DNA of 64,000 bases, taken from Paramacrobiotus metropolitanus (Eukaryota; Tardigrada; Eutardigrada; Parachela; Macrobiotidae). Within the stretch, counting starts at the first letter, position 1; the number at the start of each line of letters is the position of its first letter. The DNA lies in contig NW_026570235.1 of assembly GCF_019649055.1 (NCBI RefSeq), positions 124,001-188,000 of the forward strand. Reading direction: 5' to 3'. This document shows positions 46,620 to 64,000 of the stretch, one piece after another. The notes below the pieces were generated by a model, which searched no databases, was not told where the DNA came from, and worked only from the letters and a program-made list of their open reading frames with translations. The position numbers and the translations under genes were made by a program.

Positions 46620-47056
46620 TGTTGTCAGAGGCACATGACTGCGCCTGGTGCATACGGCCCACCATGGACGTACTTGCACTCATGCTTGTCATATCGCCTC
46701 TCTCGCTGTACGTACGTGTGCTGCTGCACTGCACTCACATCCGCTGAAGCGGATATACGCGGCGCACACACTGAGCATACTTGCTCTTTCGTCCCTCTCT
46801 CGCAGTATGACTCAGCGTTCATACGCTCGCGTTGGATCGAGTCCAGTCTGCGCATCATCACACAGCTGATGGCACACACCACGTGCTTGCCGCCAGGGGC
46901 TTTTGACGCCTTGGCAAACGCTCAAGAGCTTTTTAGCATTCACTTGCTTGCTTAGCCATCAGTGCTTTGTTTTGCTTTCCCTGCTATTACGCAGCATTGT
47001 TCCCTTTATTTGTACAATAAAGCACACTCGTGATCTCCTCGCGCTTGCCTGTTACA
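46620..47056 (+). repeat. Candidate 5' LTR
   Basis: The proposed unit starts TGTTGTCAGAGG and ends CTGTTACA, directly before a primer-site-like TGG. AATAAA at 47019 would be the poly(A) signal of the R region. The right edge is better supported than the left. Only a second copy beyond the window could prove it. Confidence 0.35.
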
Positions 47057-47076
47057 TGGTAAGCAGGATCGTTTGG
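47057..47076 (+). promoter_or_regulatory. Candidate primer binding site
   Basis: TGGTAAGCAGGATCG follows the proposed LTR end immediately. It resembles, with small gaps, the complement of the 3' end of initiator tRNA-Met (TGGTAGCAGAGGAT in animals). Confidence 0.3.
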
Positions 47077-47619
47077 TTTTCTTTCGACGGACCCTTTGAG
47101 GAGACGGTGAAGGCTCAATTCACGGAGAAATTGTGAGGAACCTGAAAGTCACTGTTAGATCGATTGCTGAAGCAATCTCTACCTTGACTTTGATCAGAAC
47201 GGTCGCATCGTCTTACAGCTGAGGAAAACGAGGATCACTGAAGTGATTCTTGCCCAGCTGGTGAGCACAGTTTTTCTTGGTCTCTTCCACATTGAAGAGC
47301 GCATTCCCAACAGCACGGACTTTTCTCAACTGACGGATCAGACTCGAACGAGAGTCTGCAGCGCGATAGGATTACTCCAATAATACGGGGACCTTCGCTT
47401 TGAACAGCGACCCGCAACTTTACTCGCGGATTTCAGCTCGGAAACGACGAATTTCCGACCTCGGACGGAGGAAATCGACCGGAACCGACACCGACACCGA
47501 CACTGGTAAAGTCACGGTTATATATCGATTTTAGCCGAAACTAGGTCGGCTTTTCAATTTCTAACGGTAGAAAACGATTTCTATCCGTAAAATTTAACTT
47601 TTTAACGGTGAAAAAGTAA
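47077..47619 (+). other. Leader between primer site and pol frame
   Basis: No gag-like frame. Possible splice donors are CTG|GTGAGC (47261) and CTG|GTAAAG (47505). They could feed spliced mRNAs for pol, which lacks an early ATG, and for the downstream frames. Confidence 0.4.
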
Positions 47620-50600
47620 TTTCTGATAACGCGACATGTACCTGACCCATTACCGCCAATAGAGGAGCATACTCCGACCACAGTGCACTTCGCGAGTAGC
47701 CCACCGAAACTCCAGGACGATGTAATCCTGGACGAAACGGATAAATCCTACCAGTGTACCATCTGCAAGGACAACATTGACGGGGTTGTACGGGCCATAA
47801 AGGCCCATCACGACTTAACTTGGTCGGACGACAGACCGTGGTCGCCGTCACCGCCGCAACAGGAACGGAAGGTAGACCGTTTTCGGAAGCCCCAACAGAC
47901 GCGCATCCAATGGTTGAGCGACATAGGCTCACAACCAGCCGACCTTGAGAACCAGGACGGAGCAAGTCGACCTACCCAACCGACGGAGCAAGTCGACCAA
48001 GCTGAAACGACCACACAGGTCGAAGTCGATAATACACCACAAGTCGGACAGGAGGACGGAACAACCGTCGAAAACGAAGATTTTCAGTCGGACGACTCGG
48101 ACATACAGAGTACGAGCGACTCGGCGGATACCGACTCCGATAACCGACCTTCGGAAGAATCCGAAGAGGAAGACGACGAAGAATTCGACCTGTCAGTCCG
48201 ACACTGTAGGACGGATAAACCGAGCATAAACGACTCGGACGACTCGTCATCGGAAGACGAAGAACTGACTTACGATGTCCGACTAACCACAGCACTGCGG
48301 ACTATAGTTCACACAGAATTTATAGTCGAGCAACCGGAACAAACCGAACAACCGAAGCCGGTCGACTCCGAACAGCAGGAGGAACTCGACCAACTTAAGG
48401 CTTTGTGGGAGTTCGGAGGAGGTAAATCAGAGGAAGACGATTTCCGACCTCCAACCATAGTCGTCCAGCAGTTGTCAACGGAACAACCGACCTTGGCTAA
48501 CCTGACCGACCAACAGAAGTCGGAGCACTGCAACTCATGGAAGGCACGAGTCGCCAAAATAACGACGATCGAGGAGTTGGACCTAGACAACAAATGCCCA
48601 GAAGTCCACCACTTAAAGCTGGATTCCCACATAGAGACGAAAGCGTTAGACCGACAAGTTGTCTTCAACAGCGAACGAGTCTCTCTCCCACCATGGTCAA
48701 CATGTTCGATCAAGGTACGGACGGCCAAACCAATGGATCCGAGAAGACCAATTTACTTCTCTACCCTACAACGGGTAGTCCGACCTATTCGGCCAATCGA
48801 AGCCAAGATCGACATTCGACCGACAAACGACACGGCCTGGATAAACATTCAGAACACGACTCACCAAACGAAGGTGCTGAAGAAAGGTGTTCGACTCGGA
48901 CATATGCAGTATGCCGACGTTTATGAACCAGAAATCAACAACGAATTTGTCGAATGGGAACTCCCACACAGAGTGGCGAAGACTTGGCCCCCGACTCGGG
49001 AAGTGAAGCCAAAACCCCAGTTCGAAGTTTTCGAGGCAACAGGAGTCCGAGCCCAACGGAAGGTCAAACTCATTCCTCGAGCCGTAACCATGGTAGAAGT
49101 CGTCCTGGACGTACCGGTATCCAAGGACCAAAAACTGATGTACCTCGGTGAATCCGACCCCAAACGGGACGGAATCGAATTCATGGACGGCGTAACCAAA
49201 CATGACGGGAAACGATTCACCATCATGGTGGCAAATCATACTCATCGGGAAGTTACCTTACGTAAAGGTGCACCGATGGGTCGAGCCGAAGCATTCACTA
49301 TGATGACGGACGACCAGAAAGTCGAAGAGGCACGAGTCAACACGGCTGAAGTCGAGCAAGAAGACGCGGAATCCCAAGAGGAGCGACGAAGAATCATCGA
49401 CTCCATGAACTTCGGTAAAAATCTAACCGATGAACAACTAGCCAAACTGAAGGCAGTGGCATGGGATTACCGGACCGTATTTCCGATTTCGAAGAAACCT
49501 TATGGAGACGAAAAAGAGGTAACACATACCATTGATGTCCAAGGGGCGCAGCCGATTAAGATGAACCCCACCAGGACAAGCTGGAAGGGACGTGAATTCA
49601 TCCAGAAACACGTGCAAGAGATGCTCGACCAAGGAGTCATCGAACCGTCATCGGCTGCATGGAGCTTCCCCGTCGTCTTAGCCGCAAAACGGAACGGAGA
49701 CGGCACAGTAGGAACACGCTTCTGCATCAACTATATCAAGTTGAATGCCGTCACGAAGAAGAACAACTACCCATTACCGAATCCGGACGAGCTACTGGAC
49801 CGATGTGCCGGAATGGAATACTACGGCAAGGTAGACTGTCAGTCCGGCTTTTGGCAAATTCCTATAGACGAACAATCCAAGGACTACACGACCTTCGTAA
49901 CACCCGAAGGCTTGGGGCGATTTAACCGTATGCCGTTTGGAGTCTGCAACGGACCAGCAACCTTCCAAATGCATATGGATAAAATCACAGCATCAGCTCG
50001 GAAGAAGGGTGTGTTCGCCTACATTGACGACATTATCTTCTTCGGCAAAACGTTCGAAGACTTCCTTGAGGCTTTCCGAGCAACTCTCGAATGCCTCCGC
50101 GGTGCTGGATTCACGGTCAAACCCTCCAAATGTGAGATCGGAACGGACAGACTGCTGTTCCTCGGACACGTTCTCAGTAAAAACGGAGTCCAGACCGACG
50201 ACGAGAAAGTGGCCTGTATTGCAGAACAAAGCTGCCCGAGAACTGAACGGCAACTTAGGTCGTTCCTCGGCCTGGCCAACTATTACCGGAAATTTATCCG
50301 AGGATATGCTCAGAAAACTTCGAAAATGTACGAGCTCCTCCGGAAGGACAAAAATATCAAGCTCGACTGGACGGAAGCCCACACGGCTGAGTTCAATGAT
50401 ATCAAGAAGGCGCTAACAGAAGCACCCGTACTGGCAAAGTTCGACCCGACTAAGAAGACAGTCATCGAATGTGACGCAAGCGGAGCCGGACTTGGCGCGG
50501 TGATCTCACAAGACGATCACCCAATCGCCTATGCCAGTCGAGTCCTACGCGGACCGGAACTCAATTATGGAGTTACCGAATGGGAATGTTTGGCCGTGGT

Positions 50601-53181
50601 ATGGGCCGTGCAGAAATTCAAGCACTTCATCGACCACGGACCATTCACCGTAGAAACGGATCACCGAGCACTGCAGAATCTGCTCCGATGCGAGTCGAAC
50701 CGACCTGGCATCAACCCTCGACTAACGAGATGGGCACTGGCTTTACAAGGACGGGACATAACCATCGAGTATAAGCCGGGAGTTTTCTGCGACAATGCGG
50801 ACGCCCTGTCGAGATGGTCACTCGAACGCAGTGACGACAAAGATCCACACGAAGAGTTGGACCAAGTCCCCAACTTCGAGGACTTCAAAGACGAAATCAA
50901 GGTCTGCACAATACGGACTCTCAGACGTCTGAAGGCAAATGCCTCGAAAAAAAGGAAGAAGGATCTAAAGGAACCACCGAAAATCCCCCTTCCACCGGTT
51001 CTCCCCGGATGCAATGTCATAACCGACTGGGACGACTTGAGCACGGCAGAAGTCCGAGTCATTAACATCCCAGCACCGGAGACACCGGAACCGACAGTTC
51101 GAACCGTCAACACGGCGGAAGACGAGGAGTTGGAAGTCGAAAAGACACTCCCACCTCCACCCGAACCGAACGTGGAACTTCGGAAAGCGCAGTTGCGAGA
51201 CCCACAACTACGCAAAATTATCGACGAACTGGAACACCCAGAGAACCTCGACCATAAGTCGCAACATCTGGAACATTACCAGATGGCGCAAGGAATCTTG
51301 TACAGACTGAAGACCATCAACACAAAGTTGGAACGGTGCTTCGTCGTACCACTCTTCATGCGCAACCAAATCATCCGATCGCTCCACGACGGAAAAACCG
51401 GAAACCATTTCGGACGGGAAAAGACGATCGAAGCGCTGAAGTTGCGTTACTATTGGCCAAGAATGAACAGTGACGCCATCTCCTATGTCGAGAAATGCCG
51501 ACAGTGCATTATGACGAACAAACAACGACGCCCACCACCCGGTAAACTCCAAAAGATGGAAGTCGGTGAAGCCTGGTATCGCATCTACGCGGACTTCAAA
51601 GGTCCTCTTCCTCGGACGGAGACGAAGGGATACCAGTACATCGCAGTGGTAACCGACCAGCTGACGAAGTTCACCACAGCCCGGGCGACAAAGACGAACA
51701 CCGCGAGAGAATTCGAAAGGTTCTTCGTCAAGGACGTCTTACTGAAATACGGAAAGCCGACCTTCATTCACTCGGACAGAGGGACACACTTCACAGCGAA
51801 GACGTTCGCTAAGGTCGCACGGATCTTTGGCATCCAACATACGCTTGGAACTGCCCATCATCCGGAAGGACAAGGACAAGTCGAACGGCAAATGCAAACG
51901 ACTTGGGACGGAATAAGGAAGTTCTGTGACGTAAAGGACGGACATCGATGGCACAGAGCCTTGGATTATGTCGTCTGCGGAATGAACCGAGCCGTCCATG
52001 CCGCGACTAAGTTCTCACCGTTCTACATGTTGTATGGTCGAGAGATGACCATGCCACAGGACACAGTGGCCGAAACGAATACACCGGAAACCTTTACGGA
52101 CAAGGAACAGTATATCCGACGGATTAAGGAACGACTTCAACGCTCGCACGAGATTGCTCGCATCAACATTGATGAAGCATTCGAACGAAATGCAGAGCAC
52201 TACAACAAGAAGAAGTCGAATCCGACCTTCAAACCAAGGGATAAGGTAACGGTGGAATTCCCGACCAAGGACCCAGCTCGGAAGGAACGTTATGACGGAG
52301 TTTGGACGGTCATCAACTACGTTGGCCCAAACAACTTGCTCCTCCGATGCGAAGACGGACGTGAAGACACGGTAGCCGTCGACCGAGTTAAACATTGCCG
52401 AGTCGAGGCAAGTCGACCAGCAACTCGGTCAACTGGCCCGGTAGCCGACCCGACAGAAGGGAAAGCTACTCGGAAGCCGAAGAAGAAACCGGACGAAACC
52501 GTCGGAAAGCCTTCGAATCCGACTAACGAAGCGGATAAAACTGAACCGAAGATAAAGAACAAGCGAGGTCGACCTCGGAAGAAACCACCGACCGACTTCG
52601 AGACACCTGCATTGACAGAACTGCAGAAGCAAGATGTGATAGCAGCTGACCCAGCACCGACCTCGGAGGAAGTCGACGAGCACAAAGCTCAGCCGACCAC
52701 CGAGCAGCCGAAGAAGTCGGATGATAAGTCGGAAACGCCGGTCCAGCCAGCCAACCAACCAACAGAGAAACCGAAGTCGGCAACAAAGCCAGCTCGGAAG
52801 AGAACGGTGAAGAAAACCGATCCGTCGGCACCGACCACAGAGGTCGCTGTAACCGACTCGGCAGTCCAACCGACCAAGCCAAAGCGCAAGTACACGAAGC
52901 GGAAGGTCGACTTACCTAACACATCGGCGCCGACCACGGAAGCCGTAGCAGCCGACCAGGCAGTCGAACCGACTAAGCCGAAACGGAAGTACGGAACAGC
53001 TAAGAAACCGAAGCTGACGGCACAACAGATGCTGGAAGAAACAGAAGTCGCTGAAGACGAAGCCCACAAGGAAATCCTCGAACGAATTACCGAAGGACGG
53101 GCAGACTCGGAGAAACCAGTCAAAACAGCAAAACCCAAGACACCTAAAACAGCAGTCACAACAGAACAGACTCAGTCATAG
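47620..53181 (+). CDS. pol: Pol polyprotein: RT, RNase H, integrase, AT-hook tail; no visible protease
   Basis: One open frame of about 1850 codons. Numbering from GTG 47683: a Cys-x2-Cys/His motif (YQCTICKD, about 23-30) and a long acidic linker. Then come two beta-rich segments of the kind that precede gypsy RT (SLPPWSTCSIKV, LIPRAVTMVEVV). Next is RT (RFCINYIKLN, DCQSGFWQI, YIDDI about 779), then RNase H (ECDASGAGLGAVI about 928, ETDHRAL). The integrase follows, with an HHCC finger (HFGREKT to KCRQC) and DDE residues in YADFKGP, HSDRGTH and GQVERQ (about 1302, 1363, 1400). The last 270 residues are Lys/Pro/Thr-rich with a canonical AT-hook (KRGRPRKK) and repeated KPKRKY units. No DTG/DSG protease motif is seen. 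The first ATG is deep in the frame, so expression probably needs splicing. Confidence 0.85.
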   Translation, partial: FLITRHVPDPLPPIEEHTPTTVHFASSPPKLQDDVILDETDKSYQCTICKDNIDGVVRAIKAHHDLTWSDDRPWSPSPPQQERKVDRFRKPQQTRIQWLSDIGSQPADLENQDGASRPTQPTEQVDQAETTTQVEVDNTPQVGQEDGTTVENEDFQSDDSDIQSTSDSADTDSDNRPSEESEEEDDEEFDLSVRHCRTDKPSINDSDDSSSEDEELTYDVRLTTALRTIVHTEFIVEQPEQTEQPKPVDSEQQEELDQLKALWEFGGGKSEEDDFRPPTIVVQQLSTEQPTLANLTDQQKSEHCNSWKARVAKITTIEELDLDNKCPEVHHLKLDSHIETKALDRQVVFNSERVSLPPWSTCSIKVRTAKPMDPRRPIYFSTLQRVVRPIRPIEAKIDIRPTNDTAWINIQNTTHQTKVLKKGVRLGHMQYADVYEPEINNEFVEWELPHRVAKTWPPTREVKPKPQFEVFEATGVRAQRKVKLIPRAVTMVEVVLDVPVSKDQKLMYLGESDPKRDGIEFMDGVTKHDGKRFTIMVANHTHREVTLRKGAPMGRAEAFTMMTDDQKVEEARVNTAEVEQEDAESQEERRRIIDSMNFGKNLTDEQLAKLKAVAWDYRTVFPISKKPYGDEKEVTHTIDVQGAQPIKMNPTRTSWKGREFIQKHVQEMLDQGVIEPSSAAWSFPVVLAAKRNGDGTVGTRFCINYIKLNAVTKKNNYPLPNPDELLDRCAGMEYYGKVDCQSGFWQIPIDEQSKDYTTFVTPEGLGRFNRMPFGVCNGPATFQMHMDKITASARKKGVFAYIDDIIFFGKTFEDFLEAFRATLECLRGAGFTVKPSKCEIGTDRLLFLGHVLSKNGVQTDDEKVACIAEQSCPRTERQLRSFLGLANYYRKFIRGYAQKTSKMYELLRKDKNIKLDWTEAHTAEFNDIKKALTEAPVLAKFDPTKKTVIECDASGAGLGAVISQDDHPIAYASRVLRGPELNYGVTEWECLAVVWAVQKFKHFIDHGPFTVETDHRALQNLLRCESNRPGINPRLTRWALALQGRDITIEYKPGVFCDNADALSRWSLERSDDKDPHEELDQVPNFEDFKDEIKVCTIRTLRRLKANASKKRKKDLKEPPKIPLPPVLPGCNVITDWDDLSTAEVRVINIPAPETPEPTVRTVNTAEDEELEVEKTLPPPPEPNVELRKAQLRDPQLRKIIDELEHPENLDHKSQHLEHYQMAQGILYRLKTINTKLERCFVVPLFMRNQIIRSLHDGKTGNHFGREKTIEALKLRYYWPRMNSDAISYVEKCRQCIMTNKQRRPPPGKLQKMEVGEAWYRIYADFKGPLPRTETKGYQYIAVVTDQLTKFTTARATKTNTAREFERFFVKDVLLKYGKPTFIHSDRGTHFTAKTFAKVARIFGIQHTLGTAHHPEGQGQVERQMQTTWDGIRKFCDVKDGHRWHRALDYVVCGMNRAVHAATKFSPFYMLYGREMTMPQDTVAETNTPETFTDKEQYIRRIKERLQRSHEIARINIDEAFERNAEHYNKKKSNPTFKPRDKVTVEFPTKDPARKERYDGVWTVINYVGPNNLLLRCEDGREDTVAVDRVKHCRVEASRPATRSTGPVADPTEGKATRKPKKKPDETVGKPSNPTNEADKTEPKIKNKRGRPRKKPPTDFETPALTELQKQDVIAADPAPTSEEVDEHKAQPTTEQPKKSDDKSETPVQPANQPTEKPKSATKPARKRTVKKTDPSAPTTEVAVTDSAVQPTKPKRKYTKRKVDLPNTSAPTTEAVAADQAVEPTKPKRKYGTAKKPKLTAQQMLEETEVAEDEAHKEILERITEGRADSEKPVKTAKPKTPKTAVTTEQTQS

Positions 53182-53357
53182 GGCCATAGGTGTAAAACTT
53201 AGAATAAGTTTTAGGTAGCTTAACAGTAGCTAGGTATAGATGGACCTTTGGTGTCGAAATGGAATCTCTTCAGTTGACCGGAACATCTTCAGTTGAATGT
53301 ACGGGAGTTGGTAGAATTCTAACGCGCCGTATTTCCTTTCCTTGACAGCAAGCAACA
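53182..53357 (+). promoter_or_regulatory. Spacer with acceptor-like signal before ORF2
   Basis: It contains ATAGGTGTAAAACTTAG and then a pyrimidine run ending TTGACAG at 53342-53348, ten bases before the ATG of ORF2. The same pair of elements recurs at 63748-63807. Confidence 0.45.
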
Positions 53358-54722
53358 ATGTCAGGCCGTCACCGACACGACCCACCTTCCAGCGGATCCA
53401 ACAGCGGACGTAGTGGCAGCGGGTCGAACCGATCGCAGCCCTACCCGACTCATCGCTCAACATCGCGATCGGATAATTCGCGGTCGGCCACGCAGACGCC
53501 TTTACCGCAGGTAGATAATCCTAGCGCTAACTTAACAGCTAATGTGTTAGCAGGTCTTACGGTCGGGCCCCAACGCGGAGCGATACCGCCGCAGGTTTTG
53601 CCGCCGAACACAGCAGTCGATAACACAGGCTGCTTTTGGAATCTCGGCACTGGAACGAGTCAAACGACTCCGGTAACGGCAGCAGACCCACATGGTCAAG
53701 TGCCACCGTATCAGTGGTCGGCACCGACAACAATAGTCGGACCGACCAGCTCGGCATCAACAATGATGACCGGAGCAGCTTACCCGACACCGACAATGGT
53801 GCCAGGGATGGCGAACACGCCTGCAACGATTTACATGGTGCCCACAATGGCGCCAGGAATGGCTAACACGGCTGGTCCGATCTACACGACGCCCACATTG
53901 GCGCCGAGTAGCTTCCCATACAGCCCACCAGCGATGCGATTCGCATCAATCCGGCCAACGTCGGGAATGCCACCCCCACAAATTGCGACGATCAGTATGA
54001 TCAACCCAAATGGCACAATTTCGCCACCAAGGCCAATATTGCTCACGCCACCGACTTCGCCGACTCATCTTCGACCACCCGGACAACAAAGTTCCTGGAT
54101 GGATCCGAACGCGACGACTCACTTAATGAATCGGCTGAACCAGCACAGAAGTCAGGTCGGAGGACAGAGCCAACAAGTGCCTGTCTGGACGACGGCCACA
54201 CAGGTCGTAACGTCGATGCCTCCACCTTTCGTGGTCGTCCAAGAAATCAACACCAACGGAAGGACGGACGAAGAACTGCGCCAACAAGCAAAGCTGGCTC
54301 GTGCTCACATAGACACGATTAACCAAGCACTGACGCAGACTTCACAGATGGACCCAAGTCACGCCGACTACCGAGCGGCGTTACTAGGTCAACTTTCTCT
54401 AAACGAAGCACGCTTGAATGACGCCAACAAGACGCTCTACGAGAGGGAACAACAGTCTCTCCGAATTTGTCAACAAGCGGTAGCTCGACATGTGGCTCAA
54501 CGATTGGGAGATCCCGACCCCGGCCCTCCGCAGATAACCACACAGGCCATCGTACCGACGTCTCAGCCAACTCCGTCGACTTTGGTAGGCCAACAAGTGC
54601 CTGGCCGAACACCGTCGCTGGAGATCGGAAAACTCCGCGTCCAGAAGGAGGACGCGATGAAGGAGGCAGTGAAGCTCAGAATGAGTTACACAAGGCTCCC
54701 AAACAACGAGAATACGAACTAG
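53358..54722 (+). CDS. Element ORF2: Pro/Thr/Gln-rich segment with helical C-terminus
   Basis: 454 codons from an ATG in good context (AACAATG). The first 290 residues are low-complexity, rich in Pro, Thr, Ser and Gly, with near-repeats (PTMVPGMANT, PTMAPGMANT). The last 150 form a helical, charged module (LARAHIDTINQALTQ, AALLGQLSLNEARL) of the type repeated in ORF3. It ends at TAG 54720. The natural continuation (ELHKAPKQREYELGRIGREE) is in another frame (to 54844) and then passes into ORF3 after a second frame change, so ORF2 and ORF3 were probably one frame. No known domain. A gag-like structural role is possible only by composition. Confidence 0.65.
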   Translation: MSGRHRHDPPSSGSNSGRSGSGSNRSQPYPTHRSTSRSDNSRSATQTPLPQVDNPSANLTANVLAGLTVGPQRGAIPPQVLPPNTAVDNTGCFWNLGTGTSQTTPVTAADPHGQVPPYQWSAPTTIVGPTSSASTMMTGAAYPTPTMVPGMANTPATIYMVPTMAPGMANTAGPIYTTPTLAPSSFPYSPPAMRFASIRPTSGMPPPQIATISMINPNGTISPPRPILLTPPTSPTHLRPPGQQSSWMDPNATTHLMNRLNQHRSQVGGQSQQVPVWTTATQVVTSMPPPFVVVQEINTNGRTDEELRQQAKLARAHIDTINQALTQTSQMDPSHADYRAALLGQLSLNEARLNDANKTLYEREQQSLRICQQAVARHVAQRLGDPDPGPPQITTQAIVPTSQPTPSTLVGQQVPGRTPSLEIGKLRVQKEDAMKEAVKLRMSYTRLPNNENTN

Positions 54723-54797
54723 GAAGAATAGGCCGGGAGGAACAACAACGTACCGATCAGGCCGCTCATTTGAAGAAGATACGAGCTGAGAACAAAC

Positions 54798-57700
54798 TTG
54801 CGCTCATCCGGAATCTCGGCACCGACCACACAGGCGGTGATTGACGAAGAAATCCGACTAGCTCGGTTGGACGCCTTAGCGCAGAAACGCAAGGAATACG
54901 TTCATGAGACAAACACGACGATGGAACGTCTGGCCACTCTTGATCCAACGAAGGAACATTACCACCAAGCCGTCCAGGGCAATCTCGAACTGATCGACCA
55001 CTGGACGAAGAAATATCTGGAGAAGGAGAATGAAATCCGAGCACTCCAGCCGACAACGACTCAACCAGTAGTCGTCCCAACAAGTGGACCGCAACAACGG
55101 ATAGCGGTGAATGTGGGCTCGGATGCGCCACCAATCATGGTCCCGGCCTTCCAGCCGAACCCGATACAGCAAGTCCCACAAGGACTACCTGTATTGCCGC
55201 TCCCAACACTGCAGGAGCTACGGGCATTCTTACGAATGGCTGGAATAGTCGTGGAACGAATGGGCGCGGTCATGGAAGATACACAGGCCGGAACTCCTGA
55301 ATGGCAAGCCCTTGAACACAACGGGAAAGTCATTCGTGACTACATGGCAGGACTTCAGTCATACTTGACTACCGGACTGCCAGCAACGACGGCAGAACTG
55401 ACCGTCATCCGAACAAGGATGCAGAATGCACAAAACCGAATCAACCGGCATCATCACCTGACCCAAAACTTGGAAGCCGCGGAACGGAGGTCGTCAGCCG
55501 TACCAATGCCTCAAATAACGGACGTACGGGCCGCCATCCAGGTCGGAAATCGAATCCTCGACGGCATAAGGATGACGCAAGGCGGAGACTTACCAGCTAT
55601 CGCCAACAGAGCTCAGATAGTTAACGACCTCCACCGAAGCTTGCGCATCGCCCGCCAATTACTCGAACTACGTGACGGGATAACGACAGATGACCAAGCC
55701 GTCCGACTGAACATGCATTACCGAAGGATTCAACAGATACTCCAGAGCCAGACGGGTGGAACCGAACAACAGGTCCCCCAGCTCAGGTACCATGCAATGG
55801 CACTTCAGATTGGTCAGGATGACCAGACGACAGAAGTCTGGAAAACCATCCTCGACGGCAAAGAAGCCCTCCAAGCCGTCTATGGACGAATAGCCAATGG
55901 GATTCAGAGTCTCACTGATGTAGATCCCGTTCGGAAAATTAACGATCTCATAGCTCATATAGGGCTAACTGAAGATCTTACTCGGTATGGTTTGCCCACC
56001 ACAAAGGTGGACAAACACCGACTCCGAACAGCCATGGATCAGGTGAAGATGGCTGTCTTAATGGAAAAATCTCCGACCTCACAAACGGATAACGTCCAAC
56101 CGACGACGTTACAACCGGGAGCCATTAGGACTTCACCGATATCATCGCCTCCACCGCCGACCACACAGGTCGACAGCGGAGCACACCCGCCGAATACACA
56201 AGTGTTCGACCCGGCACGACTTCGGACGCTCGAAACACTGAAACAAAAGCGGGACGAGGTGATTAATCAGTCGAACGCGATCAAGGAACGGATGCAGAGT
56301 CTCCCAACGAGCGGAGCCGACCATCCTCAAGACTTCCAAGTCTTGCTGAACCAGTACAAACAAGCGTACAATCGCCATAAGGAACTCGACAAAATAATCC
56401 ATGTCGAGCAACAGATGATTCAGCTGACCGCAACACCACGGTCTCCACAGACAATGCAGGCACTAGCGACGCCAGCCACGAACGGTGAGAAGACAATCAC
56501 CGACGCCAGGAGAGCCCTACGAGAGGCAAAGCAAATCCTGGAGAAGATACGCGAACGCTCGCAACAAGGTCTGGAACGCTATGCCTTACAGAAGATCGAA
56601 GACTTCACAGCTTACATAGAGCTCGTCGAAAGTCTAATCCAAAGCGGGACGCCACAGACGATGGCACATCAAAGGTTACTAGAGCCAGGGGTTGCGCTAC
56701 TATCAAAGCTCAACGAGGAGCATCGAAGCCTTTTACCCGCATCATCGACGACGACCACACAGGTCGTAACGTCGAATACCTCACCCGACAGGACGATCCT
56801 CTACGCCAAAGGCGCCATCAAAGCGGCGGAGCGCACACTGAAACGAATCAGGCGACGCGCGGCGAAGGGAATCGAACCGAATGCACAGAAAATAGTATCC
56901 GAGTTCGACACTCACATACAATTAGTGAGAAACCTGATACAAACAGGTACAGTCGAACCAGAAGCCCATTTTCAACTCACGATGGATGCCATCAACCGGC
57001 TGCAGGACTACAGCCGAAAGCAGAACCGACTACCCGACTCCGACACGGAGACTTCGGATGCATTACCGTCGACCTCATCGGCGGCGGAGATGCACTCGGC
57101 AATGCGGAAAAGCCGCAGGGAAAAGATGGCTTCCATAATCGGCGATGGATGGAATCTACTAGATCACCTCCAGAGATCCTTCGTCAACGAGACACCAACC
57201 GACGCCGAAACGCTCCAGGCAGCAAGGCAGAAGATGAATGACTTAACGGCCTACCTGAAAAGAGCTGATCATCTAATTATGAAAGATGAACCAACCGAGG
57301 TCGACGAACGACAACTCAGAGCGGTAGTCGAACGGATCACAGAGATCCTCGACGCGGAACCGGCATACACTAAACGGATTCCATCGCCATCGTCACCTCG
57401 CCGAGCAGCACCGACTACGACAGCGGTGATGACTCTAGTCGGCACCACACCGATGGAAGACTTAACGGCCAACATGGACATAATCTGTCAAGCCGGACAA
57501 GACTTGGCTGATATTTACTATCACCGACTCAGTGGAACTCTAACGGAACAGGAGCAAACTGACCTTGAACGGATCAACCGAGCATTACGACTCGAGTTGG
57601 ATTGGGCCGATACTTTAGGCTCATGGGAAATTCCACCGCCAGGTCCGAACCGAGACCGGCTAATCGAAGCGCTTAAGTCGGTGATCGACCATGTCAAGCG

Positions 57701-58514
57701 GTACTTGGCAAACCCAAACAAACCGGGAACGCCAGCACAAGGTCGAGAGAGAACACCTTCTCCAGTCCCATCAGTCGGACTTGACGTTGAACTTCCATTC
57801 ACCGAAGTAGTTGAACGGAAAGAAGTCAACATCGGCGAGGTCGAAGATCAGTACCGGGAAGCGGTTGAAGTTATGGAGAAGCTCGGAAAACAACTCCGCG
57901 AGCTCGACCCCAACAACGCTATGGAGAAACAGATGCGTGATGCCTTGGATCAGCAGTACAACATCTGCTCAAGGCGGGTCGAAGACTTGTGGAAAATCCT
58001 CGAGGCTAACCCACAAAGGGTTCAGCCGACCTCCACTCAACCGCATCCGACTGCTTCGCAAAAACCACCCGAGCCCACATTGGCAGACCAGAGGAAAATA
58101 CTCGACCACAAGCTGGCTCGTGCACAAAAGATTGCCGCCGACTTACAACGGCAAGTCGACAGCATGGACGGAACAGATCCGACCATCCGTAACATACGGA
58201 CAGCAATCGGAGATCAACTAAGATTTCCCAGATGCACGTCCAAGACATTGAAGCAGAGATTGATATGCTCCGACGTGATTGCATGGCGGAAAGAATACGC
58301 CGAGAAAAGCGTGGCCCGCAACAGTCGACTACTACCAGCCAGCCGACTTCGACAACAGCTCGGATTCAACTCCAGCCGACCTCAACAGCGAGTTTGGCCC
58401 AACCGAAGCCGTTGGAAATGGCCGACCGGCCCATGTCTCCGGCTACGGAAGCTCGGATCATGGAAGCCATACCGGACACTGACGGGTTGCCGAGTACGGT
58501 CGCGCCACATATAG
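54798..58514 (+). CDS. Element ORF3: long helical-repeat protein
   Basis: 1238 codons of mostly amphipathic helix broken by Pro/Thr/Gln linkers. Two module types recur. The first is a coiled-coil pair (LARLDALAQKRKEYVHETN; LRTLETLKQKRDEVINQSN; QYREAVEVMEKLGKQLREL). The second is a bundle-like unit of about 70-90 residues (ARRALREAKQILEKIRERS; AKGAIKAAERTLKRIRRRA), each ending LIQxGT. Linkers repeat TTTQVVTSN and TTQVDSG wording. Homology leaves this frame near 58225 and continues in the frame of ORF4, so the last 95 codons here are probably spurious. No recognised domain. It could be structural, as gag or spectrin-like scaffolds are, but this is inference. Confidence 0.65.
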   Translation: MRSSGISAPTTQAVIDEEIRLARLDALAQKRKEYVHETNTTMERLATLDPTKEHYHQAVQGNLELIDHWTKKYLEKENEIRALQPTTTQPVVVPTSGPQQRIAVNVGSDAPPIMVPAFQPNPIQQVPQGLPVLPLPTLQELRAFLRMAGIVVERMGAVMEDTQAGTPEWQALEHNGKVIRDYMAGLQSYLTTGLPATTAELTVIRTRMQNAQNRINRHHHLTQNLEAAERRSSAVPMPQITDVRAAIQVGNRILDGIRMTQGGDLPAIANRAQIVNDLHRSLRIARQLLELRDGITTDDQAVRLNMHYRRIQQILQSQTGGTEQQVPQLRYHAMALQIGQDDQTTEVWKTILDGKEALQAVYGRIANGIQSLTDVDPVRKINDLIAHIGLTEDLTRYGLPTTKVDKHRLRTAMDQVKMAVLMEKSPTSQTDNVQPTTLQPGAIRTSPISSPPPPTTQVDSGAHPPNTQVFDPARLRTLETLKQKRDEVINQSNAIKERMQSLPTSGADHPQDFQVLLNQYKQAYNRHKELDKIIHVEQQMIQLTATPRSPQTMQALATPATNGEKTITDARRALREAKQILEKIRERSQQGLERYALQKIEDFTAYIELVESLIQSGTPQTMAHQRLLEPGVALLSKLNEEHRSLLPASSTTTTQVVTSNTSPDRTILYAKGAIKAAERTLKRIRRRAAKGIEPNAQKIVSEFDTHIQLVRNLIQTGTVEPEAHFQLTMDAINRLQDYSRKQNRLPDSDTETSDALPSTSSAAEMHSAMRKSRREKMASIIGDGWNLLDHLQRSFVNETPTDAETLQAARQKMNDLTAYLKRADHLIMKDEPTEVDERQLRAVVERITEILDAEPAYTKRIPSPSSPRRAAPTTTAVMTLVGTTPMEDLTANMDIICQAGQDLADIYYHRLSGTLTEQEQTDLERINRALRLELDWADTLGSWEIPPPGPNRDRLIEALKSVIDHVKRYLANPNKPGTPAQGRERTPSPVPSVGLDVELPFTEVVERKEVNIGEVEDQYREAVEVMEKLGKQLRELDPNNAMEKQMRDALDQQYNICSRRVEDLWKILEANPQRVQPTSTQPHPTASQKPPEPTLADQRKILDHKLARAQKIAADLQRQVDSMDGTDPTIRNIRTAIGDQLRFPRCTSKTLKQRLICSDVIAWRKEYAEKSVARNSRLLPASRLRQQLGFNSSRPQQRVWPNRSRWKWPTGPCLRLRKLGSWKPYRTLTGCRVRSRHI

Positions 58515-59707
58515 TCAAGCTATTGGCTAGAGTAGCAGAACTCATCATAGAGATGAGGGCCCGCAGAAACTTCTGCGTCGACAATAGCCAAGAAGCTAAC
58601 GACTTGGATCGAGACATCCTGGCATGGGGAAACAACGCTCGGTTTATACGACGACTTTGTCACCCGGACGCCCCACAAACGACCAGGACTCGGCAACACC
58701 TTATCCGAACTACCTCATGGTTGGAAACAAGGGTGAATGAGTATGAGGAAGAGAAGGAACGAGACAAAGAACAGGAGTCAACCAACCTGGCAACAAATGC
58801 CATGGCCGAAGGTCGGTCGTCTCGGATCACAAAGATCCAGACGGCTCGGAAACCGACTTTCGACTCCGTCCGACTTCCACCTCCAGCCCCACCAGCCAAA
58901 CCCGACCTCGAGTGGATAAAAGCAGTCAACACACAGTTACTGCGAGCGGACGCTGTTATTGTCGAACTTCGAAAAATGATGGACGAAACCGACCAACGGA
59001 GTCCACAGTATTGTCAGATCGACATCAACCTCGGACACTTGGAGAACAACACCAAGGAAGCCCGATTCATTCTCCGACCAACCACAGTGTGGTCGGAAAA
59101 GAACCAAGAACGGCTGCAAACACTGACAGCCATGATTCAGTCCTTTGTAGACGACTTCTACAAGCGGAAGGAAGCGGAAGAGCAACGTAAGCTGAAGAGG
59201 CCGCCCTCCGCCAAAAAGCCAAAGGTACAACCTGTCAAACCGACACAGGTAGTTCCACCGGTGAGTCACCAAGACGAGCCGATGGACGAAGTACCAGTAC
59301 CACCACTCGAAGGCGACGATGAACCGATGGATACGTCGGAGGAAGTCGGAACAACAGAAGTAATCCGACCTAAGCCCCTGGAACGACCTACAACGTTACC
59401 CGGGCTCTCACAAAGAGAACCACAGAGTGAACGAACACCTGATGGTCGACTCATCCTCCAACCAGGCGGATCGAATTCACCGAAGTTGGCACGGAAGCCG
59501 AAAACGACGGGCAACGTCGAGGAGCACGGACCACGTAGGCGGCTCTTCCCGTCGAAGTCGCCATCACCAGTCAGGACCAAGGAACAACTCTTGGAAATCC
59601 TGAAGGCGGCCCCGTCTTCCCTACCACCGGCCGAGGAGAAACCGAGCCCAGCACGGAAAGTGAGGGGAGCAAAAGCCTTGTTTACTCCGGCTGTCCACAA
59701 GAAGTAA
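58232..59707 (+). CDS. Element ORF4: continuation of the helical polyprotein
   Basis: 491 codons overlapping the end of ORF3 in the minus-1 frame. The segment MHVQDIEAEIDMLRRDC completes the coiled-coil module begun in ORF3, so the overlap marks a frameshift. It contains another bundle-like region (EWIKAVNTQLLRADAVIVEL) and a Lys/Pro/Glu-rich tail (PRRRLFPSKSPSPV). The stop TAA at 59705 is followed in the same frame by ORF5. Confidence 0.6.
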   Translation: MHVQDIEAEIDMLRRDCMAERIRREKRGPQQSTTTSQPTSTTARIQLQPTSTASLAQPKPLEMADRPMSPATEARIMEAIPDTDGLPSTVAPHIVKLLARVAELIIEMRARRNFCVDNSQEANDLDRDILAWGNNARFIRRLCHPDAPQTTRTRQHLIRTTSWLETRVNEYEEEKERDKEQESTNLATNAMAEGRSSRITKIQTARKPTFDSVRLPPPAPPAKPDLEWIKAVNTQLLRADAVIVELRKMMDETDQRSPQYCQIDINLGHLENNTKEARFILRPTTVWSEKNQERLQTLTAMIQSFVDDFYKRKEAEEQRKLKRPPSAKKPKVQPVKPTQVVPPVSHQDEPMDEVPVPPLEGDDEPMDTSEEVGTTEVIRPKPLERPTTLPGLSQREPQSERTPDGRLILQPGGSNSPKLARKPKTTGNVEEHGPRRRLFPSKSPSPVRTKEQLLEILKAAPSSLPPAEEKPSPARKVRGAKALFTPAVHKK

Positions 59708-60376
59708 GTCGGCCAAGCTAAAACGCTGGACCTTCAACGGATACTCTACGAAGCACAACTTCAAGGAGGTATCCGAGATCGGACCATGACGGAAGACCAA
59801 CAGACTCAAATGGCCCAGAAGATCCACGCTACAATTCAGGATAGAGATAAAGTCCTAAGACGGTTGGTAACTTTGCGATGCGGAAAGCAGGAGCTACGAC
59901 AACTCCCGCTGGACACCAACATGATCCAGACGATTCAACGTCTCCGCAATCCGAGCATCAACCCGGGTGCCTATACACTGGAAATCCAACCTCGGCCCGG
60001 AGAAGAGGTGACCGAGAAGATTCCGATAACAATGTCGCATAGCAGTGAAGAAGAGGAGAATGCGGACAACATTGACTCCGATGACTCCATTCACCAAAAG
60101 GCAGAGGCACCTACGAAGGGATCCACACCGAGACGAGGCAGATCGCCGGTAAAACAGATATCACCGACCCGAATGGCATCCAGCCGACCAAACTGCCAAG
60201 TCAACCACCGATTGAGAAACCGCTTAGGTTCTCACCTCGGAATACTCCGACGAAACCGAAGAAAACCGAGGAAGAGATGGACACAACATCCCCCTCGGAA
60301 GCGCAAGTTGGAATTACGGTTGAAACGTCACCATAAAGGGACGAACCGACCTCCGTTCAATCCGGTCCACGCCTAA
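59708..60376 (+). CDS. Element ORF5: segment in the same frame as ORF4 after one stop
   Basis: The frame continues directly past TAA 59705-59707 (GQAKTLDLQRILYEAQLQGG) with an ATG at 59786. It holds a short helical domain and a charged stretch (SHSSEEEENADNIDSDD, STPRRGRSPVKQIS). After about 60175 protein-like sequence shifts to the next frame (LPSQPPIEKPLRFSPRN), so the last 65 codons are out of frame. Confidence 0.5.
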   Translation, partial: VGQAKTLDLQRILYEAQLQGGIRDRTMTEDQQTQMAQKIHATIQDRDKVLRRLVTLRCGKQELRQLPLDTNMIQTIQRLRNPSINPGAYTLEIQPRPGEEVTEKIPITMSHSSEEEENADNIDSDDSIHQKAEAPTKGSTPRRGRSPVKQISPTRMASSRPNCQVNHRLRNRLGSHLGILRRNRRKPRKRWTQHPPRKRKLELRLKRHHKGTNRPPFNPVHA

Positions 60377-61872
60377 CAATAGACGAGTCTCGAACGAACG
60401 AGTCGACGACCGAGTCGGGTAACATACCAACCAAACGGAGTACGGCTAAGGAGAAACCACCTCAGGACTCGTCGCGGGAATTTCACGACGACCTAGCCCT
60501 ACAACATGTAAAGGACTTAACGAGGTCGGAACAGGATGCCTGCATCGACATGGCATACCCAGAGGATAGGGAGCTCTGGCACTCGTTGAGAATCCGACGT
60601 GCCAGTATAGTCGGAAACACCACGGAAGCTCGGCGTGACCACGACCGACTCACCGAGAAGATGGCCGACGTTATGAAACGAATGGGAGAACATTATCGAG
60701 CGGAAAGGAGCCGACCAAAAGCCCTACAAGCGGCTGCACCGACTCCACGCAAAGCCACCGCCCCGGAACCCAAGTCGACCAAGAAGACGGTACAACCACC
60801 CGTCGTCAAAATGAAAGTCCCCCCTTCGACCAGACAACCTTCTGTCCAAATCGACGACGATCCGGATACACGGGTCATCAACTCGGCTAACTCCGCGAAA
60901 TCCCACAAGGATAAACGGAAGGCCAAGAAGGAAGCAGCAAAACAGTCTGCCAGGCCGCAACCGACGGAAGTCCAGAAGAAACCAGTCAAGTCGGAAGCCA
61001 AGGAGCCGGCCAAACCGAAGTCGGACTCCACGGTTAAGACGCCCAAGCCTAACCCGGCTAAACGACACAAGTCGTCCGACGACTTGGATATTTTGGATGC
61101 CGGCCCACAAAGGACCGAACAGAAGGAGAAGGCCCAAGAGCCGCACGACAAGGAGGCGGTCGAACGGAAATTCAAAGAAGTCATGGAACGAGCAGGTACA
61201 AAGCCGGCTAAGACTTCAGGAGGTCGACTACGGAATCCACCAAAACCGCCGACTCCGCCCGAACAACCCCAGCCTTCAACATCCAAACAACAGTCGGACG
61301 ACGAGCCCGATAAAACCTCGGACATTGAGGAAAAGGATTCAATCTCCGACCATGGGGAGGGCGATCCCTACGAAGGATATAAAGGCGACCTGAGGGAAAT
61401 GTTCGACCACGGAGCGGACACGGATGAATCACAGTGGCCAGCCCCGGACGATGTACGCGAACGCCTTCCGGACGAACAGCCAGACGATCCGGTCGATACG
61501 CTAATTCGCAAAGTTCGAGTACACGTCGAGGTCGTCCGCAGCATTCGGAACGCCAAGGAAAACGCTAAGGACATTTACCAGTCCTTAGTACAGGACTTGT
61601 CGAACAACATACAGGTCGAAGGCGAAACTGGAAAGTGGTTAACGCATCAATTCATGATGCAGATTGTTGCCTGGACCCTCGATTATGGATTAGCGGTCGC
61701 CGTTCACCGACAATGGGGACGGATGGCTGAACTCATCCAACCGGACCTCATTAAGTCACTTAAAAGCGCAGCGGCAAGAAATGCGGACGACACACCGACT
61801 AGAATTGCACGGTGCATCGGATACATTCGGAACCCTCGTGGATCGAACCTGGTCCAAATTGCCCGTGTATAA
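60337..61872 (+). CDS. Element ORF6: Lys/Pro-rich linker and helical domain
   Basis: The frame is open from TAA 60334; the first ATG is 60550. It has a helical head (AYPEDRELWHSLRIRRA), a 200-residue Lys/Pro/Glu linker (SAKSHKDKRKAKKEAAKQ), and a globular-looking C-terminus (TLIRKVRVHVEVVRSIR, TGKWLTHQFMMQIVAWTLDY). It ends at TAA 61870 and the frame continues as ORF7. Confidence 0.55.
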   Translation, partial: RDEPTSVQSGPRLTIDESRTNESTTESGNIPTKRSTAKEKPPQDSSREFHDDLALQHVKDLTRSEQDACIDMAYPEDRELWHSLRIRRASIVGNTTEARRDHDRLTEKMADVMKRMGEHYRAERSRPKALQAAAPTPRKATAPEPKSTKKTVQPPVVKMKVPPSTRQPSVQIDDDPDTRVINSANSAKSHKDKRKAKKEAAKQSARPQPTEVQKKPVKSEAKEPAKPKSDSTVKTPKPNPAKRHKSSDDLDILDAGPQRTEQKEKAQEPHDKEAVERKFKEVMERAGTKPAKTSGGRLRNPPKPPTPPEQPQPSTSKQQSDDEPDKTSDIEEKDSISDHGEGDPYEGYKGDLREMFDHGADTDESQWPAPDDVRERLPDEQPDDPVDTLIRKVRVHVEVVRSIRNAKENAKDIYQSLVQDLSNNIQVEGETGKWLTHQFMMQIVAWTLDYGLAVAVHRQWGRMAELIQPDLIKSLKSAAARNADDTPTRIARCIGYIRNPRGSNLVQIARV

Positions 61873-62619
61873 AACGTTATGTACATGGACAAGAAGGGCA
61901 ACATTGATGATATCATCAGCCATATCGAGGGCCGAATAGAAGAACTGGTCGCCGCACATACCCTCCAAACGACTAACGCAGAACGCGACGTGCCAGTTCG
62001 GTATACTGTGCCGAATTTCATACCGGAACAACATCGGCGTGAATTCAACCTCCGGATGTCCTATGTCAACACAGACAAGCCTCCGGCGGGCACGGAACCG
62101 ACCGAAGAATATAGCGATTCCAACGAACAACCGTCGGAAGACGCAGCCACCTTGCTGCATATAGCTCGTACGGCTGCACAATCGTCACAAAGACGAGTTC
62201 AAGCCTTAACCCGACCTCGAGCACCCCATGAACCGACAACATATGTCGGCACGGCATCAGCTCCGGCGGGACGAGCAAGTACAGCCAAACCAACTCGGAG
62301 TGCGAAGGGACGGTTCTTACCGAAAGACGTACAGTCGCTTCCACCACCTTCGCCGATGGAGATTTCGCCGGAACCAGAAGACTTGACCCAACAGAAGGGA
62401 AAGTCCAAGTCGACCAAGACGAAGTCGACTAAACCGGCTAAGAAAAAGGAACCGAAGTCATCCGAGCTGATCTCGTCATCCGAGGAAGAAACCGAAGATG
62501 AGGATGACGATGACGACGAGGATTTCCAAACACCTGGAAATATCTCACCCAGGGATGACGACGATGACGATGACGACGGAAACGGTAAACCTCCACCACC
62601 GTCGAGCTCGGCACCTTAA
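61873..62619 (+). CDS. Element ORF7: same frame, acidic C-terminus
   Basis: It starts at or after the TAA at 61870 (ATG 61879, MYMDKKGNIDDIISHIEGRI). The helical head is followed by basic/Pro-rich linkers and a strongly acidic tail (EEETEDEDDDDDEDF and DDDDDDDDG). It ends at TAA 62617, again with the frame open beyond. Confidence 0.5.
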   Translation, partial: NVMYMDKKGNIDDIISHIEGRIEELVAAHTLQTTNAERDVPVRYTVPNFIPEQHRREFNLRMSYVNTDKPPAGTEPTEEYSDSNEQPSEDAATLLHIARTAAQSSQRRVQALTRPRAPHEPTTYVGTASAPAGRASTAKPTRSAKGRFLPKDVQSLPPPSPMEISPEPEDLTQQKGKSKSTKTKSTKPAKKKEPKSSELISSSEEETEDEDDDDDEDFQTPGNISPRDDDDDDDDGNGKPPPPSSSAP

Positions 62620-63183
62620 CAGCAGGCCGAACCGGAGATACCGGCTAAACAACCCGAAGAGAAGGATAGCGGCGACAAGGCCGACGATTCCAAAAGTAAC
62701 GAAGATGACGGCGGAGTATACGTCCCTCGTCAGTACGGTAAACGAGTACCACTGACGCCCGACTCCGACCATCAGCCACTTCGTTCGGACTTTCATGAAG
62801 ACATGATAGAAGTCCTACCAGACGACATTCCTCCATTGGTCAACGTTAGGCTGAAGTACACCGGCATCAAATCGGCTTCGAAACCCAAGCCGAGCGTCTC
62901 AGAATACGACGCGGGATGGATGTATACATTCGCCGCGCTGAAGGCCTTGGCTACACGTGGACCAAAGTTCGCCACACCAAGGATCGCCTTCAAACTCCTC
63001 CAACACTGGAAGGTAGATGAGTCGGGCGACTGGCGACAACTTAGCCAGAACAATGTACGACATTACTGCGACCTAGGCTACCATGCCGGGAAGTTGATAC
63101 GTACATACACCAGCGGAAAACGGATGTACTACGAGTTCCCACCGGCTAAGAAAGATCCGGCCCCTTCAACATATGAAGGATAG
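62620..63183 (+). CDS. Element ORF8: winged-helix-like domain
   Basis: Same frame as ORF7, first ATG at 62803. After an acidic linker, about 80 residues (GWMYTFAALKALATRG, RIAFKLLQHWKVDES, LIRTYTSGKRMYYEF) have the helix-helix-helix-hairpin pattern of a winged-helix DNA- or protein-binding domain, with a basic hairpin. The fold call is by eye. It ends at TAG 63181. Confidence 0.45.
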   Translation, partial: QQAEPEIPAKQPEEKDSGDKADDSKSNEDDGGVYVPRQYGKRVPLTPDSDHQPLRSDFHEDMIEVLPDDIPPLVNVRLKYTGIKSASKPKPSVSEYDAGWMYTFAALKALATRGPKFATPRIAFKLLQHWKVDESGDWRQLSQNNVRHYCDLGYHAGKLIRTYTSGKRMYYEFPPAKKDPAPSTYEG

Positions 63184-63591
63184 ATACACGCCATTGAAGC
63201 GTGCATGGAAATGTCCTGGCACCCCGACGGACTTACCCGCGGAGAAATACTTCACCAACTAATAGCGCGGTTTGAGTTCCAGTGGACATCAGCGGAACCG
63301 CAGTTGGTCGACCCTAAATACAAGGCCAAACCAGACGCAGTTGCCGGACGGAAAAAGTACTCCCTGGATGACGAACTAGAATTCGTCATATCGAAGGCAC
63401 TCCACCAACAACGATTTGCCACGAATACCGACAAAACCCAAGGCGGTCAACGGTTTATCGCCTTAAACCCCTCAACCCACCGCTATGGACATTTACCGAA
63501 GGAACGACCCATCTCGGCACAATCGACCGAGTTGGCCGATTCGCATCAAGCAAGTCGGCTCGCGTCGCCAGAAGTACCTACACGGGAATGA
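63184..63591 (+). CDS. Element ORF9: second winged-helix-like domain
   Basis: Same frame again after the TAG, first ATG at 63205. The sequence LTRGEILHQLIARFEFQW to YSLDDELEFVISKALHQQRF and GGQRFIALN resembles the recognition helices and wing of H15-type winged-helix domains. It ends with a Pro/Ser tail and TGA 63589. Confidence 0.4.
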   Translation: MHAIEACMEMSWHPDGLTRGEILHQLIARFEFQWTSAEPQLVDPKYKAKPDAVAGRKKYSLDDELEFVISKALHQQRFATNTDKTQGGQRFIALNPSTHRYGHLPKERPISAQSTELADSHQASRLASPEVPTRE

Positions 63592-63807
63592 GGAAACGCG
63601 GAAAGCGTTGGGAGAGAGGCATAACCGACCTCCTTCCATTGACACCACATAAGCGTCATCGACCAACAGAAGTCGACTTACCTCATTAGACGACCACAAA
63701 GGCGTCTTGGACCAGTTCGAGAACCGACCTGGCCCGACCGTAGTAATCATAGGGTGTAAATTATAGGATGCAACCGAGAAACGGTTTGCTGACTTTTGTT
63801 TTGACAG
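63592..63807 (+). promoter_or_regulatory. Spacer with second copy of the acceptor-like signal
   Basis: ATAGGGTGTAAATTATAG at 63750-63767 parallels 53183-53199, and TTTTGTTTTGACAG at 63794-63807 parallels the site before ORF2. This suggests a spliced or re-initiated message for the next frame. Confidence 0.45.
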
Positions 63808-64000
63808 ACTCGTACGGAAGAGCCCCGAACGGAAGCCTTCACGGTGGACTGCCAACAGTGCATGGACAACGCGACGAGGGACAACAACAGAATGCCCTGC
63901 GCGCTGTGTATCGTATCCTTCACGAATGAACGAATTTCCGGCACCGGAGCGCAACACCGAGCTCAAGCAGCGGCACTCTACCTAAACGTCGTCGCCGGCA
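63808..64000 (+). CDS. Start of a further element frame, cut by the window edge
   Basis: Open from the acceptor-like site to the edge (64 codons). It has two CxxC knuckles (DCQQCMD and PCALCIV) and a downstream His (GAQHRAQ), reminiscent of the Cys motif at the start of pol. Incomplete, no function assigned. Confidence 0.4.

Follow-up and report, generated by a model that had tools for sequence, protein, structure and literature searches.

In the part of a review cited here, animal long terminal repeat (LTR) elements of more than 30 kb are represented by Burro, giant gypsy-like elements of planarians (>30 kb) with BIR, BCL2, ankyrin and env-like domains spread over one gag-pol polyprotein and the accessory open reading frames (ORFs) (PMC6431247). 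The same part covers the Ogre elements of plants, very large Ty3/gypsy elements with one or two extra ORFs, whose size comes mainly from long LTRs (PMC6431247). For Cer1 of C. elegans, the cited part of PMC10309623 reports that the protein CERV is needed to export the unspliced genomic RNA. Here we describe a stretch of 64,000 nucleotides from the tardigrade Paramacrobiotus metropolitanus (the window hereafter; positions 124001-188000 of contig C15, NW_026570235.1, in a 169.8-Mb assembly of 533 contigs), which very probably holds an old, rearranged copy, with gag and protease deleted, of a Ty3/gypsy-type element of about 30.3-30.8 kb.

Near-complete copies of this element have the order LTR, leader, gag, pro-pol, ORF3, ORF4, 3.2 kb of non-coding sequence and LTR. 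Like Burro, as described in the cited part of PMC6431247, the element is of Ty3/gypsy type, exceeds 30 kb, has a gag with a CCHC knuckle and many extra kilobases of coding sequence, and is present in many copies. Unlike in Burro, gag and pol occupy separate frames, the extra proteins follow pol, one product appears to be made by splicing, and the LTRs are just 0.43 kb long. No Pfam match was obtained for BIR, BCL2, ankyrin or env-like domains, some of those in Burro having been found by an HHpred-type search, nor was there any between protease and reverse transcriptase (RT) (L017:6900-7850), where Burro has a dUTPase-like domain. The likeness to Ogre lies in the very large size, the Ty3/gypsy type and the extra ORFs, whereas the bulk of the tardigrade element is coding sequence after pol (PMC6431247, in the part cited). 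As a second, different design of more than 30 kb in another phylum, it offers a test of ideas about how large a packaged RNA can be. A search of titles and abstract openings, covering part of the literature with Repbase outside it, found no publication on such a giant tardigrade element; Gypsy is listed among the LTR elements in an article on the repeats of Hypsibius exemplaris and Ramazzottius varieornatus, whose cited part does not use the word giant (PMC11071193).

In what follows, copies are named by contig number (C69, C138 and so on), with the suffix b for a second copy on a contig, and e coordinates are positions along copy C69. By its sequence features the element is a Ty3/gypsy-type LTR retroelement: its pol has the order protease, RT, RNase H and integrase (the protease seen in C69, absent from the window copy), its LTR ends are of the Ty3/gypsy-like form TGT...ACA with 4-bp duplications (in eight of 14 copies, not the window copy), and C69 has a gag with a capsid-like region and a CCHC knuckle upstream of pol. 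A chromodomain after integrase had no Pfam match in the window pol frame. An RT-RNase H tree was built from 32 rows, 30 of them database hits (320 hits had E <= 1e-30, 120 of which were listed; classical reference elements were not included). In it one clade (support 100/100) unites the window copy and C69 with four other P. metropolitanus proteins; its branch is 1.04 changes per column long, and none of the 26 remaining database hits used is closely related to it. The nearest RT relatives are the P. metropolitanus Ty3 families P0003-P0006, in the same clade as the window copy (100/100), with identities over the RT-RNase H stretch compared of 69-84% for P0003/P0004 and 66% for P0005/P0006. Family P0005 (C58:772359-780416 and 17 other scored candidates) has frames of 2.5-3.2 thousand amino acids (kaa), eight of 18 being stop-free in the main match.

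Copies in the genome and the deletion in the window copy

Copies were placed in the genome with LTR, RT, late-ORF3 and 3'-LTR probes, each listing being the best 40 of 107 to 550 candidates. A search for other copies had been suggested in an earlier note on this stretch, and it found near-complete ones with both ends listed that span 30.3-30.8 kb (C69, C69b, C27, C38 and C138), ORF3 being open in C69. Other spans among the copies listed are 29.9 kb (C15b), 32.9 kb (C122) and 36.4-36.9 kb (C94 and C7), and short copies measure 16.0-22.3 kb (C85, C205 and C186, with C133 at 16.0 kb and C176 at 20.4 kb). The distance from LTR to RT is 3.4 kb in the window copy, against 9.8-12.5 kb in all 19 other measurable copies listed; 20 of the 40 LTR matches have an RT match downstream among the matches listed, the remaining 20 being without one listed. 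Aligned to C69, the window copy joins e1013 to e8410, with about 7.4 kb gone and few extra bases, and no GT-AG sites are found at this junction. Lost with this stretch are gag, protease and the beginning of pol. Genome comparison thus shows that the pol-first layout, lacking gag and protease, arose by a deletion in the window copy; three other short copies (C205, C186 and C85) retain the gag region.

In C69, the stretch absent from the window holds a coiled coil (our reading of weak Pfam matches to coiled-coil families), a region that is capsid-like in position and residues, a CX2CX4HX4C knuckle (CRHCMFNNHDESRC) upstream of pol, and an aspartic protease in frame with pol (Pfam gag-asp_proteas 5.9e-8, RVP 1.2e-5). 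Gag and pro-pol are in different frames in the three copies inspected (C69, C138 and C38). In all three, gag ends with CCG GGA AAC GCC CAA GGT CGA TGA, and reading in the -1 frame across G_GGA_AAC continues into pro-pol. The two frames overlap by 27 nt in C69 and C138, whereas in C38 the downstream one has an interruption. A stem, GGUCGA...UCGACC, begins 6 nt downstream of G_GGA_AAC. This stem folds only modestly better than shuffles; we infer that pro-pol is likely expressed by a -1 frameshift at G_GGA_AAC.

Part of what the earlier note had drawn from the window agrees with these findings. RT, RNase H and integrase are as clear as it said (E-values in Table 1), no gag or protease frame lies ahead of pol in the window copy, and there is indeed a giant gypsy-like element whose pol is followed by a long coding block of unexplained nature, which lies inside LTRs elsewhere and is under selection. 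The layout that it took to be the element's own is contradicted by the gag, CCHC knuckle and protease upstream of pol in other copies, and with gag present there its suggestion that the extra proteins replace gag falls too. Extension past 64000, from which it expected a 3' LTR and a target duplication, yielded the LTR (C15:193192-193599), so that the window copy measures about 23 kb from LTR to LTR; no 4-bp target duplication was found around it. No 3' LTR stands before ORF2, or anywhere before 64000. The ORF3 block was not seen free-standing at the six of 16 candidates examined (C69, C334, C3, C104, C113 and C27), each of which has a same-strand RT match at about the expected distance. A general caution follows, namely that a repeat layout read from one copy can be a deletion artefact.

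Age and integrity vary among copies. Duplications of 4 bp, identified by eye, flank eight of 14 copies (CTTT, CATT, TTCC, ACTG, CCTT, AAAT, TCAT and TTAT), and the LTR pairs of these eight are 0-2.1% apart, with differences at 0/436 sites in C133, 0/431 in C176, 1/434 in C186 and in C7, 3/437 in C27, 4/434 in C94, 5/438 in C205 and 9/434 in C122. Some copies are thereby shown to have inserted recently, as two have identical LTRs and two a single difference, all with a duplication. The LTRs of the six copies without duplication differ at 9-20 sites (20/405 in the window copy, which is one of the six). The 5' LTR is nearest to the LTR of another copy in five of these six and tied in the sixth (C38), and in our reading these six either arose by recombination between copies or are chimaeras of the assembly. 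The split is not clean, as C122 and C205 have duplications and yet a 5' LTR nearest to that of another copy. By these measures C133 is a recently mobilised short form; it has an RT (C133:44400-48300) and joins e14458 to e28838, not at splice sites.

Splice sites and intronless copies

A donor, CCGCAG/GTAGAT (a slash marks the splice point), follows codon 51 of ORF3 (codon 55 in C69) in five of five copies, and an acceptor, TTTTGTTTTGACAG, stands directly ahead of ORF4, likewise in five of five (AACAG in C48). C176 lacks exactly the stretch between them and reads CCGCAG/ACTCGTACGG, which shows, at the level of genomic DNA, that the first 51 codons of ORF3 become continuous with ORF4 once a 10.3-kb intron is removed. 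A DNA probe spanning the junction was unbroken at six of 40 scored places (of 184 candidates), stopping at the splice point at the other 34. A 20-base junction pattern with one mismatch allowed occurred six times in the genome, each time exactly, with no occurrence of the reversed control. The unspliced acceptor was found at 59 genomic places (38 exact, 21 with one mismatch; reversed control 0), a count of the acceptors of this one sequence type.

The intronless copies are C176, C99, C14, C46, C180 and C152, and in all six the junction falls on the same base, at GT-AG sites. They are not one lineage, judging from their sequence distances. C99 is 0.7% and 1.4% apart from the intron-bearing C69 on the two sides of the junction, against 3.8% and 22.8% from C176, and C176 and C152 are 22.6% apart in ORF4. 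Two pairs may each share one event, namely C46 and C180 (5.2% apart on the 3' side) and C99 and C14 (1.9% and 3.3%). In C176, C180 and C152 the frame reads through the junction and stays open as far as the examined piece extends. That of C99 also reads through but ends at codon 167, and those of C14 and C46 are already broken upstream of the junction. Six exact junctions at GT-AG sites imply that spliced RNA was packaged and reverse-transcribed, probably at least four times when gene conversion is set aside. In these six copies, splicing and packaging have left a natural archive, and genome sequence by itself is then enough to study how an LTR element is alternatively spliced.

An upstream splice would serve ORF3, which we infer to be made from a singly spliced mRNA through the acceptor at 53348. 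As for possible donors, the primer-binding-site candidate next to the 5' LTR also reads ATG/GTAAGC, and the leader has more donor-like sites (CAGCTG/GTGAGC and CACTG/GTAAAG).

Coding, selection and possible roles of ORF3 and ORF4

The post-pol coding sequence, about 10 kb in the window, is rich in Pro, Thr and Gln, of which the earlier note had seen Pro and Gln; what it had counted as ORFs 2-9 is one decayed ORF3. In C69 this is a single frame of 3302 codons, from window-equivalent 53346 to 63434 (read as two pieces). Across 16 scored ORF3 places frames reach 2.1-3.4 kaa, at least 3.0 kaa in 11, some with a stop inside the match. The ORF4 frame (63805-65996, 730 amino acids) is open in C69 and C138, its first ATG in C69 being codon 20, and the window copy of ORF4 carries a frameshift.

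Selection was measured as Nei-Gojobori dN/dS between C69 and up to four copies (C15, C138, C48 and C38). The ratio is 0.02-0.05 in the pol core, 0.11-0.35 in the spacer before it and 0.06-0.14 in the integrase tail; 0.11 and 0.22 in the main gag frame (two copies); 0.12-0.24, 0.08-0.15, 0.05-0.14 and 0.07-0.09 in blocks of ORF3; and 0.01-0.09 in ORF4. The last 3.2 kb gave 0.60-0.92 in all three frames, and the protease block is uninformative because it has too few changes. ORF4 of the diverged copy C60 has 73.7% identity, with dN 0.18, dS 1.13 and a ratio of 0.16. These ratios show purifying selection on gag, pol, ORF3 and ORF4. The ORF3/ORF4 block, selected and lying between LTRs in other copies, belongs to the element.

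A search of 5.8 billion proteins found no relatives of ORF3 or ORF4 outside the P. metropolitanus genome. The sole match of ORF4 was P0001 and that of ORF3 was P0002 of P. metropolitanus (58% identity over 37%), which matches C68 of the same species at 99-100%. As the search needs shared 5-residue words and scored about 8000 candidates per query, distant relatives may have been missed. Still, with some 12 kb of coding sequence under selection and no relatives known, the element opens an unexplored protein space. The winged-helix-like domains of the earlier note had no match in Pfam scans of the window or C69 frames. Internal repeats are present in ORF3: at E < 1e-4 there are 20 directed tile pairs, while five shuffles gave none, and at E < 0.01 there are 69, compared with a total of 20 from the five shuffles. 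One class (class B) has six repeats in the window, from which its profile was built, and five each in C69 and C138. It is predicted to form a three-helix bundle (pLDDT 84), the model having no specific fold match in structure comparison. The number of class B repeats differs between copies: one at 56769-57032 is found in the window and, more diverged, in C48 and C38, and is absent from C69 and C138.

Under the favoured reading of the window as a deleted copy of this element, LTR-driven transcription would yield a genomic RNA serving gag and, by the -1 frameshift, pro-pol; one spliced RNA would give ORF3, and removal of the 10.3-kb intron would give ORF4 with the same N-terminus as ORF3. ORF3 might act as a scaffold in packaging or organising a genomic RNA of such length, a role that bundles and linkers would suit; this is a guess, and a tentative one. 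ORF4 resembles CERV in its position, its lack of relatives and a spliced mRNA sharing an exon, the CERV N-terminus being common with gag, unlike the 51 codons that ORF4 has in common with ORF3 (PMC10309623, in the part cited). That ORF4 is a regulatory protein like Cer1 CERV or Rev is by this analogy a guess of ours, and on the whole an unlikely one. Cer1 is far smaller than the tardigrade element. We can also imagine, at somewhat less than even chances, that a giant tardigrade Ty3 lineage independently evolved expression like that of complex retroviruses, with a frameshifted pol, a singly spliced ORF3 organising the 30-kb RNA and a doubly spliced export regulator of the CERV/Rev kind, the spliced copies being failures of this control.

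Several observations count against the favoured reading. The readings of splicing and expression are drawn from the genome sequence, and no genomic copy was found of the leader joined to the ORF3 acceptor (in a pattern search with three guessed donors). The capsid has DUF4939 at E=0.016 as its one match, under the Pfam cut-off, and the frameshift stem betters shuffles at z of -1.6 and -1.7, with 15/200 shuffles as good. No tool used gave a fold or family for ORF3 or ORF4, and the AlphaFold2 model of the ORF3 C-terminus was unusable (mean pLDDT 34.9). Lastly, two copies with identical LTRs and a 4-bp duplication (a perfect one in C133) are incomplete in this block: C133 has almost nothing of ORF3 and no ORF4, and C176 is missing most of ORF3. 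Having inserted without these genes, they show that ORF3 and ORF4 are not needed in cis, and only that.

Those two internally deleted copies also bear on whether the pol-first layout could mark a true subfamily, one that has lost gag, still propagates and relies on complete copies for mobilisation in trans, since they show that copies with internal deletions do move. We think this very unlikely: a short LTR-RT distance is confined to the window copy among the 20 measurable copies listed (a few others could exist), the short copies C205, C186 and C85 keep the gag region, and the window copy has no duplication and LTRs that differ at 20/405 sites. The intronless junctions, in turn, might have arisen by chance deletion, or one spliced copy might have repeatedly converted others. 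Copies of the element probably undergo gene conversion in general, and the pairs C46/C180 and C99/C14 may each go back to one event. Against this explanation, all six junctions lie on the same base at GT-AG sites, C99 is nearer to the intron-bearing C69 and C138 than to the other intronless copies, and C176 and C152 are far apart in ORF4. We consider it improbable.

Whether ORF3 and ORF4 are captured host genes, passengers without a role in the element, turns on similar evidence. LTR elements can capture ORFs downstream of pol (PMC6431247, in the part cited), and copies without ORF3 or ORF4 still inserted. Purifying selection on both across copies, and on ORF4 also across diverged subfamilies, argues the other way, as do the long ORF3 frames kept in several subfamilies and the protein search, with no relative outside the P. 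metropolitanus genome; we regard passengers as quite unlikely. An envelope, which would make the element an endogenous retrovirus, would fit the post-pol position and expression by splicing; a gag stretch, EPPSYR, resembles to us a PPxY late motif, and planarian Burro has env homology (PMC6431247, in the part cited). Yet the maximal 19-residue Kyte-Doolittle mean was 1.36 in nine C69 frame pieces and at most 1.27 in ORF3 and ORF4, so that no transmembrane anchor or fusion peptide is evident, and there was no Pfam match, which leaves an envelope very unlikely.

Features of the window and its neighbours

Table 1. Parts of the element copy in the window (window positions; Pfam scan of the window pol over 47620-53181; a slash marks a splice point)
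Feature	Position	Strand	Details
5' LTR	46623-47056	+	434 bp, TGTCAG...TGTTACA, AATAAA signal; repeated as the 3' LTR
Primer-binding-site candidate TGGTAAGCAGGATCG	47057-47071	+	abuts 5' LTR
5' leader	47057-47622	+	common to window copy and other copies
Deletion junction	47622-47626	+	e1013 joined to e8410 (C69 alignment)
Remaining 3' pol frame (RT, RNase H, integrase, basic tail)	47626-53181	+	frame and Pfam
Reverse transcriptase RVT_1	49714-50172	+	Pfam 5e-26
RNase H (RT_RNaseH)	50368-50748	+	Pfam 3.2e-31
Integrase: H2C2 zinc-binding domain and rve core	51349-51864	+	Pfam H2C2 1.2e-18, rve 7.8e-12
Predicted 3' splice site TTTCCTTTCCTTGACAG ahead of ORF3 ATG	53332-53348	+	identical in 5/5 copies
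ORF3	53358-63591	+	about 3.3-3.4 kaa; stops and frameshifts in window copy
Exon common to ORF3 and ORF4	53358-53510	+	51 codons in window, 55 in C69
ORF4 mRNA intron (predicted)	53511-63807	+	donor CAG/GTAGAT, acceptor TTTTGTTTTGACAG/ACT; exactly missing in six genomic copies
Class B three-helix repeat array	55206-57353	+	repeat search, profile, structure prediction
Class B repeats, first three of six	55206-55448, 55515-55745, 55842-56060	+	
Class B repeats, last three of six	56487-56717, 56787-57017, 57132-57353	+	
ORF4 start (second exon)	63808-64000	+	runs on to window-equivalent 65996

Cytochrome P450 fragments (44936-46237; Pfam 8.5e-16 and 4.4e-9) end about 0.4 kb before the 5' LTR. One haem-motif pattern, run on the + strand, had no match up to the element or in the approximately 14 kb after it, and the P450 gene therefore looks broken or truncated. 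Further upstream, a large inverted duplication at 4998-8720, with main arms 98-100% complementary, contains pieces of a tyrosine-recombinase retroelement (Phage_integrase E 6.8e-5, RVT_3 E 0.0024, both under Pfam cut-offs) that looks DIRS-like to us. Palindrome-like arms of about 2.2 kb (pieces 86-95% complementary) lie at 25803-33169, flanking a centre of about 2.8 kb in which no frame reaches 150 amino acids. Pieces of host genes are also present, namely an NF-X1 zinc finger (3.6e-9) and an R3H domain (1.7e-10) in Pfam at 14695-18569, probably of one NFX1-type gene, and an ARMT1-like phosphatase exon (Pfam) at 38617-39435.

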